DNA of 64,000 bases from an uncultured Ignavibacteria bacterium (GTDB lineage Bacteria; Bacteroidota; Ignavibacteria; Kapaibacteriales; UBA2268), in the NCBI GenBank assembly GCA_903862655.1, contig CAIOZA010000055.1, positions 62,001 through 126,000 on the forward strand. Direction: 5' to 3'. A model generated the notes under the pieces. That model searched no databases. It was not told the origin of the DNA and saw only the letters and a list, made by a program, of their open reading frames with translations. Position numbers and translations under genes: made by a program. Positions 18,364-25,986 of the stretch are shown here, one piece after another (the first letter of the stretch is position 1; every line of letters begins with the position of its first letter).

Positions 18364-18831
18364 ATGAAATTAATAATTATTGGCGTGACGGCTATATTTT
18401 TTGCTTTCAACATAATGAACGCTCAGACAGACAACAAAGCTAACCATAAAGCAAATGAGGAATCTTACTTACAGGTGCCGAAAGAAATTAAGGATAAATG
18501 TGAAGACTTCTTCAATAAAAACATTAAGAATGAAACTGAGTCAGCTTATAAGAACCTACTAAAAGACAGTCCTGTTAATTCCAACCCGGAAAATCTAAAT
18601 AAACTTACAATAGAAACAGCCCGAGCAATAAAAATTTATGGAGACATGAAATCTTTTGAGCCAATCAGCAATGAGCAGGTTGGAAATTCTACTTTTAAAT
18701 TAAAATATCTGTCTTTGCATAAAGATATTCCTCTAAGGTGGCTTTTTACTTTCTATAAATCTCCTGTTTTGGGTTGGGTAGTTTTGAATGTTAAATTTGA
18801 TGATCAAATTGATTATCTCTTCAGGGAGTAG
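18364..18831 (+). CDS. Small exported protein of unknown function
   Basis: I do not recognise this 155-residue protein. It begins with a signal peptide (MKLIIIGVTAIFFAFNIMNAQ, probable cleavage after NAQ). The mature part is charged and helical in the first half and beta-rich in the second, ending with LRWLFTFYKSPVLGWVVLNVKFDDQIDYLF. That alternation resembles small NTF2-like secreted domains, but there is no firm match. It is preceded by an AGGA ribosome binding site. The next gene, an exported RidA, begins two bases past its stop codon with a GGGAG site inside this gene's end, so the two are co-translated and may act together in the periplasm. Confidence 0.75.
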   Translation: MKLIIIGVTAIFFAFNIMNAQTDNKANHKANEESYLQVPKEIKDKCEDFFNKNIKNETESAYKNLLKDSPVNSNPENLNKLTIETARAIKIYGDMKSFEPISNEQVGNSTFKLKYLSLHKDIPLRWLFTFYKSPVLGWVVLNVKFDDQIDYLFRE

Positions 18832-18832
18832 T

Positions 18833-19279
18833 ATGATAAATTACATCATAATAATATTTATGGCTACATCTTTATTGGCCTACTCTCAAAGTAGTCCTTT
18901 TACGAAGAGAGCAGTTCAGTCAACTAAAGCTCCTAAGGCAATTGGACCATATAGTCAGGCAATCCTTTCGGGTGACCTGATTTTTTTATCAGGGCAGATT
19001 GGAATTAATCCTGAAAATGGCAATATGAAGCAGGAAAGTTTTAAAGCTGAAGTAATACAAGTCATGGAGAATTTAAAAAACATAATTGAATCTGCTGGTT
19101 CAAGAATGGATAGTATAATAAAATCAACAGTATATTTGACCGACATTGCTAATTTTTCTGAATTTAATTCTATATATTCTGACTATTTTAAAGAACCTTA
19201 TCCGGCTCGGGAAACCATTCAGGTTGTTGCCTTACCCAAAAATGCAAAAATTGAAATATCTGTAATTTGCCATAAGTGA
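18833..19279 (+). CDS. Exported RidA/YjgF-family protein
   Basis: RidA enzymes hydrolyse reactive enamine/imine intermediates made by PLP enzymes. The core is well conserved: KAIGPYSQAILSGDLIFLSGQIG, LKNIIESAGSRMDSIIKSTVYL, and the catalytic arginine Arg126 in YPARETIQVVALPKNAKIEI. Unusually, the core follows a hydrophobic signal peptide (IIIIFMATSLLAYSQ), so the 148-residue protein should act outside the cytoplasm. The start is the ATG preceded by AGGGAG; a longer frame beginning at 18788 would overlap the previous gene and bury the signal peptide. The retained arginine suggests real deaminase activity rather than a dead homologue. The exported PLP enzyme at 13.3-14.5 kb could be a source of its substrate, which is speculative. 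Confidence 0.88.
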   Translation: MINYIIIIFMATSLLAYSQSSPFTKRAVQSTKAPKAIGPYSQAILSGDLIFLSGQIGINPENGNMKQESFKAEVIQVMENLKNIIESAGSRMDSIIKSTVYLTDIANFSEFNSIYSDYFKEPYPARETIQVVALPKNAKIEISVICHK

Positions 19280-19410
19280 AATAGGCGAATTCTTTTAATC
19301 TCAATTAAATGTCTCTCGTGAATAGGTTTAAAGTACTTGACATATAAATAATTTTTCTGAAATTATAAGAAAGTAATTGAAAAGTATTGGTTTTATAGAA
19401 AAAAGTTCGT

Positions 19411-19465
19411 AAATTTGCAATTGGAATTGGGACGTAGATGGATGGGCTGAGCAGCCCATTTTTTG
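19411..19465 (+). promoter_or_regulatory. nusA promoter with terminator hairpin in the leader (putative attenuator)
   Basis: TAAATTTG at 19411-19418 matches the -7 consensus. About 25 bases downstream is a textbook intrinsic terminator: ATGGGCT (19443-19449) facing AGCCCAT (19454-19460) with a four-base loop, then six uridines. It lies 51 bases before the nusA start codon. If the promoter is used, most transcripts would have to pass this terminator to reach nusA, which would allow control by termination efficiency. Alternatively it merely ends the ridA transcript, 160 bases upstream. Confidence 0.6.
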
Positions 19466-19516
19466 TTACTAATCCATAAACAGTAATTATTTATTCATTA
19501 TTTAAAGTGAGTTCAA

Positions 19517-20992
19517 ATGCCGCGTCGCAAGGTTAAACCAACCATTGACAAAAAGCTGATAATTGAAGCTTTTTCTGAAATGGCAAAAGAGAAGAATATT
19601 GACAGAGATCTTTTACAAGGTATTGTTGTTGAAACTCTATCTCTATTGGTTAAGAAAAAATATGGACTGAATGCCATTTTTGATATAATTGTGAATATGG
19701 AAAAGGGTGATATTGAAATCTACCTTATCAGAACAATTGTAGATATTGTGGAAGATCCTGTTGTGGATATTTCATTGATCGAAGCCCAGTCATATAGTGA
19801 CAAAGACGAGTATGCAGTTGGTGATGAATTCGTCGAGGAAATCACTCTTGATAACATTGCAGACAATTTTGGAAGACGTTTGATAACTTTAGCGGCTCAG
19901 AATTTGAATCAGAAAATTCGAGACGTTGAAAAAGATAATATTTATAACGAATATATCGGCAAGGTTAACGAAATTATCATTGGCGAGATCTATCAGATTC
20001 GTAGAAATGATATTTTGATTTTGCATAATAAAATTGAAATGCATCTGCCCCGCGAAGAGCAGATCCCTAATGAACCATACAGGTATAAAAAGAATCAGTC
20101 CTTAAAAGCGATTTTAAAAGAAGTAAAAAGAGAAGGCAAAGGCGGACAACCAGAGATAATATTATCAAGGGCTTCCGAAGAATTTCTTTCCAGATTATTT
20201 GAAATAGAAATCCCTGAAATTTACGATGGGATTATCCAAATAAAGGCAATTGCCCGCGATCCTGGCGAAAGGTCAAAAGTTGCGGTTATATCATTTGATG
20301 AACGAGTAGACCCGGTTGGAGCTTGCGTTGGTATGAAAGGAATCAGAATTCATTCAATCGTAAGAGAATTGAATAATGAAAATATTGATTTGATTGAATA
20401 CTCCGAAGATCCAAGAGTCTTCATCATGAGAGCTCTATCCCCAGCAAAAGTTAAGGAAATTGTTCTTGCTGAAGATGTCAGGAGTGCAACTGTTATTGTG
20501 CCGGACGATCAGGTGTCACTTGCAATCGGTAAAAATGGGCAGAATGTACGTTTGGCGTCCAAGTTGACAGGCTATTCGATAACACTCATTAAAGAAGGTG
20601 GCGAAGATATTGATCTGGTTGAATTCCGCGAAGAATTCGGCAATGATATTCTAGAAAAACTGACTCTAATGGGAATTGAAACAGCAAGAGAATTCCTCGA
20701 AGCTGATCCGCAAATGCTTCTCGCTCTTGACGGAATGTCAGCCGACAGTCTGCTGGAATTACGATCAATTATATTGCTCGAATTCGAAGAGGAAGAGACA
20801 TCTGCCATGAAAGAAAGGATTTTAAATCCGAAAATTGAAGATATCAAGTTCGCTCCTGTAGAAGTGGCAGAAAAGGTTACAGAAGTGGTAGAAGTAAAGG
20901 AAGAAATTCCGATAGTTACTCCCGAAGAAGTTAAACCTAAGGCTTTTGATATTTCAGAAATAGATGAATTCGAAATAGATGGTAATATTTAA
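19517..20992 (+). CDS. nusA: Transcription elongation/termination factor NusA
   Basis: NusA binds RNA polymerase and nascent RNA, and modulates pausing, termination and antitermination. The 491-residue protein has the N-terminal polymerase-binding domain (about 10-150), an S1 domain with the IYQIRRNDILILHNKIEMHLPREEQIP region, and two KH domains including DPVGACVGMKGIRIHSIVREL and DDQVSLAIGKNGQNVRLASKLTGY. A helix-hairpin-helix-like segment (LEKLTLMGIETAREFLEADP) and an acidic tail follow. It heads the nusA-infB-rbfA-truB-ribF operon. The usual upstream partner rimP is missing here, replaced by an unrelated ridA gene and a terminator. The acidic C-terminal extension is common in Bacteroidota. 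Confidence 0.97.
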   Translation: MPRRKVKPTIDKKLIIEAFSEMAKEKNIDRDLLQGIVVETLSLLVKKKYGLNAIFDIIVNMEKGDIEIYLIRTIVDIVEDPVVDISLIEAQSYSDKDEYAVGDEFVEEITLDNIADNFGRRLITLAAQNLNQKIRDVEKDNIYNEYIGKVNEIIIGEIYQIRRNDILILHNKIEMHLPREEQIPNEPYRYKKNQSLKAILKEVKREGKGGQPEIILSRASEEFLSRLFEIEIPEIYDGIIQIKAIARDPGERSKVAVISFDERVDPVGACVGMKGIRIHSIVRELNNENIDLIEYSEDPRVFIMRALSPAKVKEIVLAEDVRSATVIVPDDQVSLAIGKNGQNVRLASKLTGYSITLIKEGGEDIDLVEFREEFGNDILEKLTLMGIETAREFLEADPQMLLALDGMSADSLLELRSIILLEFEEEETSAMKERILNPKIEDIKFAPVEVAEKVTEVVEVKEEIPIVTPEEVKPKAFDISEIDEFEIDGNI

Positions 20993-21028
20993 TAAATACT
21001 TTTTCTTTAATAAAATTTAATTTTGTTT

Positions 21029-23944
21029 ATGAGTGGTCAGGTTCGACTAATAAAAATTGCGGCAGAAATTAACATCGGGAAAGATGCTATTGTTCAATTC
21101 CTTCAGCAGAAAGGCTTTACTATCGAGAATAAGCCTACTAGTTTATTGACTGAGGAAATGATTGAAGTTGTGTATGATAAGTTTAAAAAGGAATTGAAGA
21201 CTGCTGAAAAGCAGAGAGAAAAATTCGATAAACTGAAGCAGACACGTAGACCTGTTACTGATTTGAAGACTAAGCCCGCAGCTAGTATAGAGTCATTCCC
21301 AGAACACCACAGACCTTCTGTGGATAGTCTTATGGATGATTCGATTATAGATCCGTTAATAGCTGAAACTGTATCAAAGCCAAAATCAGATTATCAGGAT
21401 ATGGGTGATTTAATTGAAGCGATGGAAGAAGCTCCTGTTGCGAAAGTCGTTGTTCAGCCTGAAGAATCTCCAAAAGTTGAAATGCCTCAAATCATAGAAG
21501 AAGTTATCGAAGCACAACCCGAAGTTGTTATCGAGAAACAAATTGAGGAGATAAGTACCGATCTTGTTGAAGAAAAGAAGTTAGTCAAAGCAGTTGTAAA
21601 ACCATTACTTGTGAAATTGACACAGGAAACCCCTAAAGAACCACAAGCTGATGACCAAATACCTACTATCGATTTAGAAGATAACGATGAAACAGGTGAT
21701 CCCAGAGATCATGCAAAGAAAAAGAAAAAGAGAAAAAGATTAGCTGAAGTTGAAGTTGAACCAGGTGCTCATCCAAAGATAAAGGGTTTAACAATTGTAG
21801 GAAGAATCGATCTAAAATTGCAAGCCGAAAGATCTCCAGGTATTGCCGGAAGACTAAGAAAGTTCGGTAGTGCTCCTATTGGCATTACTCCGACTACAGA
21901 GGAAGATGCAGCTAAGAAAGATAAATTTAAGAAAAAGCTAAAGGGAGCTAAGACTTCCAAACAAGTTATTGAAACTGTCAAAGATAAGGCAGTTGACAAA
22001 AAGAAAAGACGTAAGAAATCAATAAGAGATACTATTACAGAAGAGGAAGTAGAAAGAGCTATCCGCGAAACTATGTCCGGTATGGGTGAAGCCTCCGGTA
22101 CAAGTATGCGCAACAAGGTTAAGCAAAAGAAACGCGTCGAACGTGAAGAAAAAGAACAGAGAATACTAGAAGAGCAACAAAAGGACGATAGCGTATTAAA
22201 ACTTTCAGAATTTGTTACTACAAGTGATTTAGCTAGTTTGATGGGTGTTAATGCCAATGAGATTATTCTCAAATGCCTGGGTTTGGGTTTGATGGTTAGT
22301 ATCAACCAAAGACTAGACAGAGATACAATTACTCTAATTGCAGATGATTACGATATCGAAGTAGAATTCCTTGACCAAAAAGCACTTCAGATGATTGAAG
22401 AAGATCTAGAGGACGATGAATCAACATTGAAGCCTAGAGCTCCTATTGTTACTATCATGGGACATGTTGATCATGGTAAAACCTCATTACTGGACTTTAT
22501 CCGTAAGGCAAACGTTGTCGCTGGTGAAGCAGGTGGAATTACACAGCATATCGGTGCTTACAGAGTTGAATTATCCAGCAATAAATATATTACATTCCTT
22601 GACACTCCAGGTCACGAAGCATTTACTGCTATGCGTGCTCGTGGAGCACTAGTTACGGATATTGTAGTTCTTGTTGTTGCAGCTGACGACAGCGTTATGC
22701 CCCAAACTATCGAGGCTATAAGCCATGCCCAGGCAGCCAACGTTCCAATAGTTGTAGCAATTAATAAAATGGATAAGTCTGACGCTAATCCTGATAGAAT
22801 TAAACAGCAATTAACAGACTATAATGTTCTAGTTGAAGATTGGGGCGGTAAGAACCAATCTGTCCAGATTTCTGCAAAGAAGGGTGAAAATGTTGATATT
22901 CTCTTAGAGAAGATCCTTCTAGAAGCAGAATTACTTGAATTGAAAGCTAATCCCAATAGATTTGCTAAAGGTACAATTGTTGAGTCAAACATGGATAAAG
23001 GTTTAGGCCCAGTATCCACAGTGATTGTTCAAAAGGGCACATTAAACGTTGGGGATTATTTCGTTGCCGGTTCTCAGTGGGGACGAGTAAGAGCCATGCA
23101 TGATGAACGTGGCCATAAAGTGAATTCTGCACCACCATCTATGCCAATCAGAGTTGTTGGTTTTGATGGACTTCCCGAGGCAGGAGACATACTTTCAGTA
23201 GTTGAAGCTGAATATATGGCTAAAGAAATTGCAAATGAGAGAAGCCAGTTGAGACGTCAGCAAGAATTTAAGCAAATGAGACACCTCACTCTTGATGATA
23301 TATCCCAACAAATTAGTGTCGGTGGCATTAAAGATCTTAATCTTATTATTAAATCCGATGTAGGCGGTTCGACCGAAGCTTTGAGTGACTCACTTCTGAA
23401 GTTGTCAACTGACGAAGTAAGAGTTAATATCCTACACAAAGGTGTTGGGTCGATCAATGAATCAGATGTTATGCTAGCTGTTGCTTCCGGAGCTGTTGTT
23501 ATTGGATTCCAGGTTGCTCCTACTGCTCAGGCTCGTAGGTTAGCCGATACTAACAGTATAGACATTCGTCTATATAGCATTATTTACAACTGTATCAACG
23601 AAGTCAAATTAGCACTTGAAGGGTTGCTTTCACCTGATATTAAAGAAGAAATCACTTCTCAGGTAGAAGTTAGAAAAGTATTCAAAATTTCAAGACTTGG
23701 TGCTATTGCCGGATGTTATGTTTTATCCGGAAAAATCACAAGAAATGATAAAGTTCGCCTATTGAGAGACGGCTTGCCCATATTTACCGGAACACTAGAG
23801 TCACTCAAACGTAACAAAGATGATGCTAAAGAAGTTGAAACAGGATTTGAGTGTGGAGTTATGCTTAACGGATATAGCACTCTAGAAGAAGGCGATATAA
23901 TTGAAAGTTACAAGTTAACTGAAGTCAAGAGGACTTTGGCATAA
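21029..23944 (+). CDS. infB: Translation initiation factor IF-2
   Basis: IF-2 is the GTPase that delivers initiator tRNA to the ribosome. The 971-residue protein has an N-terminal IF2N-like domain ([19 protein letters not shown]), a long variable, charged linker to about residue 390, then a second IF2N ([19 protein letters not shown]). The G domain follows with G1 GHVDHGKT, G3 DTPGHEAF and G4 NKMD, then domains II to IV. The start used is the ATG; an in-frame TTG two codons earlier lacks support. It follows nusA by 36 bases and abuts rbfA with no gap. All GTPase motifs are intact. Confidence 0.97.
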
Positions 23945-24307
23945 ATGTCAATAAGAACAGAAAAAGTTGCAAGCGTTATTAAACGCTCTTTGGTTAATCC
24001 AATATCTGACATTGCCCGGGAGTACCGGGCAGGATTAGTTACTATAACTACAGTCAGATTGTCCGACGATCTGCACATTGCAAAAGTATATCTAAGCATT
24101 TATGGCGGTCAGACTGGACCGGGTGAATTTATCACCAGATTGGAAAATGAAAAAGGAATGCTACGAAGAATTGTTGGTTCTCAGGTTAGACTCAGACTAA
24201 CACCAGATTTGAAATTTTTTCTGGATGACACTTTGGAGCAAATGGAACACATTCAAAATCTGTTAGATACTGTAAACAATCCCAAAAAGCAACAATCCGA
24301 AAGTTAA
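23945..24307 (+). CDS. rbfA: Ribosome-binding factor A
   Basis: RbfA is a KH-fold assembly factor that binds the 30S subunit during 16S rRNA maturation. The 120-residue protein shows the family N-terminus (IRTEKVASVIKRSLVNPIS), the central ITTVRLSDDLHIAKVYLSIYG strand-helix and RLRLTPDLKFFLDDTLEQMEHIQNLL near the end. The ATG directly follows the infB stop codon, so translation is coupled. Size and position between infB and truB are typical. Confidence 0.95.
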   Translation: MSIRTEKVASVIKRSLVNPISDIAREYRAGLVTITTVRLSDDLHIAKVYLSIYGGQTGPGEFITRLENEKGMLRRIVGSQVRLRLTPDLKFFLDDTLEQMEHIQNLLDTVNNPKKQQSES

Positions 24308-24316
24308 TAATTCCTT

Positions 24317-25048
24317 ATGATTCTCAGTCAATCCAATCTACATGAATTTGATAACTGGTATTCTGAAGCTTCTACAAATGGTGCTGTCCTTTTGATTGAT
24401 AAAGACAAGTCATGGACGTCATTTGATGTCGTTGCTAAAGTAAGAGGTCTCACAAGAATAAGAAAAATCGGGCATGCCGGAACCTTGGATCCTTTAGCCA
24501 CAGGTCTTCTGATATTGTGCCTCGGAAAATTCACAAAACGAATAAATGAATTTCAGGATTGGAACAAAAGATATATAGGCGTTATCAAGCTTGGCTCCAC
24601 TACGAAAACTGATGATTCAGAAGGTGAAGAAGAAAACATAACTGATTTTACCGGTTTGAAACAAGAAGAAATTGAAATCGCTGTTAAATCTTTTGAGGGA
24701 ACCATAAGCCAGATACCACCAAAGTATTCAGCCAAAAAGGTTGATGGGCAAAGGCTCTATATGTTAGCCAGGAAGAATATTGATGTTGAAATAAGACCAG
24801 TTGATGTTACTGTCTATAAAATTGATATTTTGAATGTCGATTTACCTTATGTGACAATTGATGTGCTATGTGCAAAAGGTACATATATCAGATCCTTGGC
24901 CAGAGATATCGGTGCTAAGCTTGGAGTAGGTGGTCACCTTTCCGGCTTAAGAAGAACCGATATCGGAGAGTTTTCTGTTAATGAGGCTCTGACTGTGAAA
25001 ATGTTCAACGAATTATTTCTAAAACCTGAACCAATACTTGCAAGTTAA
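24317..25048 (+). CDS. truB: tRNA pseudouridine-55 synthase
   Basis: TruB converts U55 in the T loop of tRNAs to pseudouridine. The 243-residue protein has the signature KIGHAGTLDPLATGLLILCLG with catalytic Asp58, and the TruB motifs IPPKYSAKKVDGQRLYMLAR and VLCAKGTYIRSLARDIG. It is near the short end of the family, lacking a C-terminal PUA domain as in many Bacteroidota. The stop codon shares one base with the ribF start codon (TAATG), indicating coupled translation. Confidence 0.96.
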   Translation: MILSQSNLHEFDNWYSEASTNGAVLLIDKDKSWTSFDVVAKVRGLTRIRKIGHAGTLDPLATGLLILCLGKFTKRINEFQDWNKRYIGVIKLGSTTKTDDSEGEEENITDFTGLKQEEIEIAVKSFEGTISQIPPKYSAKKVDGQRLYMLARKNIDVEIRPVDVTVYKIDILNVDLPYVTIDVLCAKGTYIRSLARDIGAKLGVGGHLSGLRRTDIGEFSVNEALTVKMFNELFLKPEPILAS

Positions 25049-25986
25049 TGAAAGTTTTTTATAGCATAAATGATATAGATTTCGATCCTAATACTATTCT
25101 AACTGTTGGGACATTTGATGGTGTTCATAGAGGACATCAGCTGATTTTAAATAAAATGACAAATGAAGCAAAACAATCAAATTTAAGAGATTTAGTCGTT
25201 ACCATCCACCCTCATCCTCAGGTCGTTCTACAAAAAACAGACCGTGAGCCTATCCGGTTGCTTACTACCATTGAAGAAAGAATAGCTTTATTCGATAAAT
25301 TTGGATTAAACAATCTGCTCATCATCCCATTTACTTTAGAATTTGCACAAACACCTCCTGATGTTTTCATAAGGGATTTGCTCGGCAAACATGTTGGTTT
25401 TTCAAAGATGTTGATTGGTTATGATCACATGTTCGGGAAAAATAGAGCAGGTAATTTCGATTTACTGAATGATTTGAGTTCTTCTTTGGGATTTTCTATT
25501 GAAAAAATGGAAGCATTCAGTGAGAAAGATTTAGTTATTTCAAGCACAAAAATCCGTCATAGTTTGTTTGATAACGATATAATCAAAGCTAATTCAATGC
25601 TTGGGTATAACTATTCGGTAAAAGGTGTGGTTGTACTTGGAGATATGCGTGGCAGAACAATTGGATATCCGACTGCGAATGTTGAATTCAAAGACCAAAC
25701 TAAACTATTACCTGGTAATGGTGTTTACCTGGTCAAGGTTGAAATTAATGCTGGAGTGTTGTATGGGATGTGCAATATTGGCACTAGACCAACCTTCCAA
25801 GATGATAACCATACTAGTCTGGAAGTAAATATCTTTGATTTCGATGCCGATATATATGGTCAGGATATAAAAGTAGATTTTCTTGACTTTGTGCGTAAGG
25901 AAATAAAATTCGATGGAGTTACGAAACTAATCGAAGCAATACAAGAAGATGAAGTATTTTGCAAGGAAAAAATAAATAGTTTTTAA
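25048..25986 (+). CDS. ribF: Bifunctional riboflavin kinase / FAD synthetase
   Basis: RibF phosphorylates riboflavin to FMN and adenylates FMN to FAD. The 312-residue protein has the N-terminal nucleotidyltransferase domain with TVGTFDGVHRGHQLIL (the GxHxGH-type motif) and IGYDHMFGKNRAGNFDLL, then the C-terminal riboflavin-kinase barrel with VVLGDMRGRTIGYPTANVEF, GVYLVKVEI and MCNIGTRPTFQ. Both domains appear complete. It closes the nusA-truB operon; rpsO beyond it has its own promoter. Confidence 0.96.
   Translation: MKVFYSINDIDFDPNTILTVGTFDGVHRGHQLILNKMTNEAKQSNLRDLVVTIHPHPQVVLQKTDREPIRLLTTIEERIALFDKFGLNNLLIIPFTLEFAQTPPDVFIRDLLGKHVGFSKMLIGYDHMFGKNRAGNFDLLNDLSSSLGFSIEKMEAFSEKDLVISSTKIRHSLFDNDIIKANSMLGYNYSVKGVVVLGDMRGRTIGYPTANVEFKDQTKLLPGNGVYLVKVEINAGVLYGMCNIGTRPTFQDDNHTSLEVNIFDFDADIYGQDIKVDFLDFVRKEIKFDGVTKLIEAIQEDEVFCKEKINSF

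Follow-up and report, generated by a model that had tools for sequence, protein, structure and literature searches.

In the accessible portions of its description (Naville and Gautheret, 2010; PMC2965389), the rimP-leader is a terminator, placed before rimP-nusA-infB, whose stem is conserved as GGGc(...)gCCC and is followed by a T-stretch; it lies 4–130 nt from the gene and has no visible antiterminator. The same portions call it the most ubiquitous transcription attenuator, give the length of the B. subtilis rimP leader as 180 nt, and name NusA as the best candidate for the effector while keeping RimP as a possibility. In B. subtilis, expression of NusA is controlled by termination that NusA itself stimulates within the 5′ leader (Mondal et al., 2016, as summarized in passages of PMC12288461), and in the same organism both NusA and NusG stimulate intrinsic terminators (passages of PMC8060035). 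In the S. agalactiae gbs0413-0418 operon, mapping placed termination 31 nt downstream of the start, ahead of rimP-nusA-IF2, and NusA feedback was suggested (excerpts of PMC4448216). For E. coli, the available sections of PMC6511841 give NusA a role in the expression of its own operon; CspA-family antitermination has been proposed for this operon, but the authors' data, as given in those sections, do not fit cold-shock antitermination.

In the window (the whole 64 000-nt stretch of DNA analysed here), the corresponding operon begins with nusA (Table 1), and beyond ribF apparent rpsO and pnp genes follow (by eye). The ridA-family gene upstream has its ATG at 18788 or, in frame, at 18833, and its stop is separated from the hairpin stem by 162 nt. 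Its product carries a hydrophobic, signal-peptide-like N-terminal stretch, MINYIIIIFMATSLLAYS; such a stretch is unusual for the RidA family.

Table 1. Positions of the nusA leader elements and neighbouring genes in the window.
Feature	Position	Strand	Basis or remark
ridA-family gene, upstream of nusA	18788–19279	+	TIGR00004, E 2.6e-48
TTG, candidate −33 element	19387–19389	+	sequence; 23 nt upstream of −7 box
TAAATTTG, candidate −7 element, Bacteroidota type TAnnTTTG	19410–19417	+	motif match
Terminator-type hairpin: AUGGGCU, loop GAGC, AGCCCAU	19442–19448, 19449–19452, 19453–19459	+	direct reading
GGGC/GCCC core of hairpin	19444–19447 / 19454–19457	+	
Six-T run, next base G	19459–19464	+	first T also stem-paired
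Remainder of leader, to nusA ATG	19465–19516 (52 nt)	+	direct reading
nusA, first gene of the operon here	19517–20992	+	TIGR01953, E 9e-105
infB, rbfA, truB, ribF, same direction after nusA	21023–25986	+	

The initial annotation had described a perfect hairpin with six U before nusA, and direct reading and folding both confirm it. The stem has nine pairs once G-U pairs are counted. The folding energy of 19440–19461 is −11.5 kcal/mol and none of 200 shuffles was equally stable; with the upstream flank added (19423–19466) the result is less striking (−11.8, equalled by 11 of 200 shuffles, z −1.7), and over 19423–19516, where the terminator hairpin is intact in the fold, 2 of 200 shuffles were equally stable. 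The window has a single GGGC-N3..14-GCCC-N-TTTT match where 0.05 would be expected; the pattern is present in 5 of 100 shuffles and is found eight times across the 4.07-Mb genome. Three distinct genome sites combine the GGGC..GCCC-T pattern with TTTG 5–35 nt upstream; one is the nusA leader, and each of the other two comes just after a co-directional ORF has ended. Regulatory terminators tend to be weaker than usual, according to published work, but that is not the pattern here: of 29 candidate gene-end hairpins in the window, 26 are less stable than the one before nusA. Many of the 29 are doubtful, and few look like real terminators. Inspection of the short leader by eye revealed no antiterminator partner. 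As in the broad description of the rimP-leader, the stem has the GGGc(...)gCCC form, the T-stretch lies right behind it, and the distance to the first gene, here nusA, is 52 nt (4–130 nt in that description). Judged from its sequence, the element is an attenuator of the rimP-leader class and thus of a known kind.

The candidate promoter has the layout TTG-N20-TAAATTTG (19387–19417). The TAnnTTTG motif alone is weak evidence, with 100 occurrences in the window against 84 expected; its position is the conserved part. Conservation of promoter and hairpin spacing in relatives had been proposed as a check in the initial annotation, and in 56 of 61 elements the motif indeed stands no more than 48 nt ahead of the stem. 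Among 59 aligned elements, 19 have a TTG whose first base is 22 or 23 nt upstream of the −7 box, and every other offset from 14 to 29 has 0–3. The gap between the −7-type box and the stem core is 11–13 nt in 24 of the 59 and 17–18 nt in 19; it is 26 nt in the window. Transcription from Bacteroidota promoters starts about 4–7 nt after the −7 box, and with such a start the terminated RNA is predicted to measure ~30–45 nt across the relatives. Two other placements of the promoter were discarded. One is a sigma-70 match, TTGACA-18-AATTAT at 19337–19366, set aside since TAnnTTTG is the box kept in relatives. The other is a promoter within the T-run (TTTTTTG as −7 box); the base after the T-run is G in 33 of 59 elements and A in 26, and in the window no TA precedes.

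Records of NusA relatives carry the titles Kapabacteria, Kapaibacterium, Ignavibacteria or Bacteroidetes bacteria, apart from a few odd ones; 110 loci gave 84 distinct nusA starts, which include close relatives and so are not independent events. Three nusA loci close to the Kapabacteria-like group (L055, L075, L076) carry the titles Desulfobulbaceae and Chloroherpeton thalassium, which may be wrong. The GGGC..GCCC-T element was found within 450 nt upstream of nusA in 37 of the 84 loci, the window's included, by a GGGC pattern search, supplemented by hand with L041 and L072; the core of L072 is altered to GGAC/GTCT with pairing retained. Among the 31 testable genomes of the window's family, all but one have the element before nusA (30/31): 28 of 29 loci by a permissive pattern and two further genomes (G016, G031) by coordinates, a coordinate search whose pattern also matches sites away from nusA and rimP. 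Twenty-six of the 28 have the exact GGGC..GCCC core, the others GGAC/GTCT and GGGC/GCCT. The sole exception (G018, whose contig matches that of L041) keeps the stem with a broken T-run. The terminator-type hairpin that had been noted between promoter motif and nusA is thus also conserved at the head of the operon. Rows left out of the various counts were L063 (no nusA start), L023/G033 and G038 (contig edge), G012, G022, G025 and G029 (no nusA match), L025 (RimP motif not found), L041 (from the 60-element anatomy count) and L156 (from the phylum leader scan).

Two further features were seen in individual leaders. In L046, whose leader is identical to that of L007, about four tandem copies of a ~20-nt unit, GTAAGCGAATTTTATTAACA, lie between the hairpin and nusA. 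Six others (L035, L037, L038, L042, L053 and L055) have, right in front of the stem, a small inverted repeat, ATCTC, 4–5 nt, G(A/G)GAT, that overlaps the base of the terminator stem and could stack on the terminator or compete with it.

The gene that normally heads this operon is rimP. It was searched for with Pfam in the window's own genome and in those of 59 relatives, 60 in all. Neither Pfam nor a 14-sequence profile found RimP in any of the 36 genomes of the window's family (f1, G000–G035); these are 72–100% complete, so a single absence means little, and in four of them nusA, too, escaped detection. Pfam detects RimP in 23 of 24 genomes of nine other families of the order, in agreement with the profile, which also matches 60 of 61 phylum-sample genomes, the sole exception being the window's own. 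A divergent RimP missed by Pfam was considered and rejected: across these 36 genomes the profile yields nothing under E 0.1, and stray pieces only, at E 0.18–0.24, in three (G003, G017, G025).

Of the 23 testable sister-family genomes, 20 have a GGGC-type hairpin with a T-run ahead of rimP; coordinates identified eight of these and the hairpin scan twelve, and G038 ends at a contig edge. The three rimP-keeping genomes without it make up all of family f5 (G039, G048, G055), and its absence from 3/3 implies that the terminator is dispensable. Four other loci (L081, L087, L088, L092) resemble f5 in that rimP is kept and its leader is without hairpin and T-run; in f5 and in these four the attenuator seems to have been lost. 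The simplest history that fits these distributions, we infer, is that the operon originally began with the leader, that the founding lineage of the window's family lost rimP (a single loss, judged from family labels and not from a tree) and that promoter and terminator stayed behind, which would have left the leader beside nusA.

Across 60 elements, the four core pairs are G-C, G-C, G-C and C-G in 59, 60, 54 and 55, a conservation that is partly built in, the elements (including the 24 rimP-type ones) having been found with a GGG[C/T] pattern and two nusA-type ones by hand. The genome tallies (30/31, 20/23) and a generic hairpin and T-run scan with controls are less biased. The T-run has six T in 42 of the 60 elements and five to eight in all of them; the unpaired loop is 3–21 nt long. 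The generic scan recovers 31 of 37 nusA-type leaders of the order (controls 31/779) and 19 of 28 rimP-type leaders (controls 25/553); both counts fall short because short or mismatched stems lie under the scan threshold. In the phylum sample, drawn from the best 30 of 60 loci, some of them mutually close or already counted, all 29 parsed rimP leaders are positive, compared with 19 of 257 same-strand control windows and with 5 of 29 for the other strand of the same leaders. Ignavibacteria-type leaders (L094–L110) score 17/17 against controls of 13/320. The phylum sample and the set of 60 genomes include close relatives and are non-independent. All 17 of the Ignavibacteria-type leaders have an inverted stem upstream of rimP, with the C-rich arm first (AGCCC..GGGCT and similar). 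More distant leaders of the phylum likewise have different or inverted stems, so the general design does not depend on the exact GGGC sequence.

The best overall explanation, to which we give a probability of roughly 0.7, is a rimP-leader-class attenuator close behind the promoter and tuned by NusA. RNA polymerase would start at the TAAATTTG promoter and within ~45 nt make the GGGC/GCCC hairpin and U-run; some polymerases would stop there in vivo and release an RNA of ~40 nt, and the remainder would read through into nusA-infB-rbfA-truB-ribF. NusA bound to the polymerase most likely raises termination at the hairpin, so that plentiful NusA would lower the expression of its own operon. The hairpin, the T-run, the promoter motif, their conserved order, the independence of the upstream gene and the persistence without rimP are the parts of this reading that come directly from the aligned DNA. 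That the element acts as an attenuator of the operon, and is more than the terminator of the upstream gene, we consider very likely. That NusA is the tuning factor is probable, given the precedents and the retention of the leader beside nusA where rimP is missing, and the NusA autoregulation put forward in the initial annotation is therefore probably right in kind, with the action of NusA at this locus argued by analogy.

The attenuator reading has to be weighed against a plainer one, in which the hairpin only terminates ridA and transcription of nusA starts downstream of it. The ridA gene is co-directional and 162 nt from the stem, and a hairpin of this kind would stop its transcripts. A role confined to terminating an upstream gene requires that gene to be co-directional, but the nearest upstream ORF (mechanical calls of at least 90 codons, not annotations) is co-directional in six of the 37 element loci, the window among them, divergent in 29 and not found in two; 27 of the 29 divergent ORFs lie less than 350 nt from nusA. 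The T-run ends ~21–172 nt from the nusA ATG in the 37 leaders, and at ~21–23 nt, the spacing in eight of them, it leaves scant room for a separate promoter, so the hairpin is most likely part of the nusA transcript. The promoter motif upstream of the stem (56/61) and the equivalent element upstream of rimP in the sister families point the same way. The case named in the initial annotation as fatal to its proposal is thus contradicted by the divergent neighbours, the rimP-side elements and the short spacers, and we hold it highly improbable that the hairpin serves ridA only. It could stop ridA transcripts too, and the two roles are compatible. Further from the evidence still is the idea that a transcription factor binds the sequence as a palindromic DNA operator and that no RNA hairpin is involved: ATGGGCT..AGCCCAT forms a perfect inverted repeat not far from where transcription presumably starts, yet a loop varying from 3 to 21 nt is unusual for an operator, on which ground this reading was rejected, and a T-run follows the 3′ arm; its likelihood is negligible. 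A leader peptide was also discarded. A 13-codon frame spans the hairpin of the window and an ATG lies near the stem in 25 of 37 elements (frames of 2–29 codons, one of 462), with no conserved peptide among the relatives.

If the element is an attenuator of the operon, what it responds to can be read in other ways. It might sense nothing, as a constitutive partial terminator or a 5′ hairpin that sets the basal level or the stability of the RNA, and the fairly stable hairpin near the presumed 5′ end, with no antiterminator partner noticed in the short leader, would suit this; a stability hairpin would not need the T-run, however, which is kept at five to eight T in 60/60 elements, and regulatory precedents exist, which leaves this reading quite improbable. 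Alternatively the sensed factor may not be NusA but NusG, IF2, a cold-shock RNA chaperone or another reader of the GGGC stem. The strong conservation of the stem core suggests a reader of the stem, and hints at specific recognition; CspA-family antitermination has been proposed for the E. coli operon (sections of PMC6511841), and NusG likewise stimulates intrinsic terminators in B. subtilis (passages of PMC8060035). The precedents nevertheless name NusA in the parts available (PMC2965389, PMC12288461, PMC6511841, PMC4448216), and the data of the PMC6511841 authors, in the sections cited, do not support cold-shock antitermination. An obligatory role for RimP is unlikely, since it was found in none of the 36 family genomes. 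A factor other than NusA is on balance unlikely. A more specific form of the NusA-tuned attenuator is that the stem sequence has a role beyond structure: the NusA-polymerase complex would read the GGGC/GCCC stem sequence-specifically as a gauge of free NusA right after promoter escape, and the device would be old and belong to nusA rather than to rimP, which would explain why it survived the loss of RimP from a whole Kapabacteria family. We rate this proposal as unlikely.

The levels of NusA and IF2 set transcription and translation initiation in the whole cell. The window's family offers a natural deletion, with RimP in none of 36 genomes and yet the leader in 30 of 31 testable ones, which argues against an obligatory role of RimP. 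The compact leader is also a simple template for in vitro work on NusA. A literature search for Kapabacteria with rimP, in which coverage of subscription papers is thin, found no paper.

Among the described systems, the Rfam family RF01770 (rimP leader, Gammaproteobacteria) aligns its terminal hairpin with that of the window, but the score of 14.7 bits (E 6.7, chance level) is below the gathering cut-off of 47 and the element is not a member. The E. coli K-12 sequence has GGGCTTTAGGCCC and a T-run 20 nt before rimP, so that metY-rimP-nusA-infB shares with the present locus a GGGC/GCCC hairpin and T-run just before the first protein gene; the E. coli operon differs in having several promoters, a tRNA gene and, upstream, a further terminator-like hairpin of inverse polarity. 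The S. agalactiae leader, as far as the excerpts describe it, is similar in its early terminator before the operon and differs in belonging to another phylum and in the presence of rimP. With B. subtilis nusA autoregulation the locus has in common an intrinsic-type terminator in the 5′ leader, the NusA dependence here being presumed; the B. subtilis leader is 180 nt long according to the accessible description, compared with ~45 nt here, counted from the presumed start through the T-run. Like the rimP-leader, the element combines a GGGC/GCCC stem with a T-run in the operon leader. It differs from the rimP-leader in standing without rimP, directly before nusA and close behind a Bacteroidota-type promoter motif, and what it adds to that class is a natural, family-wide absence of RimP with the leader retained.
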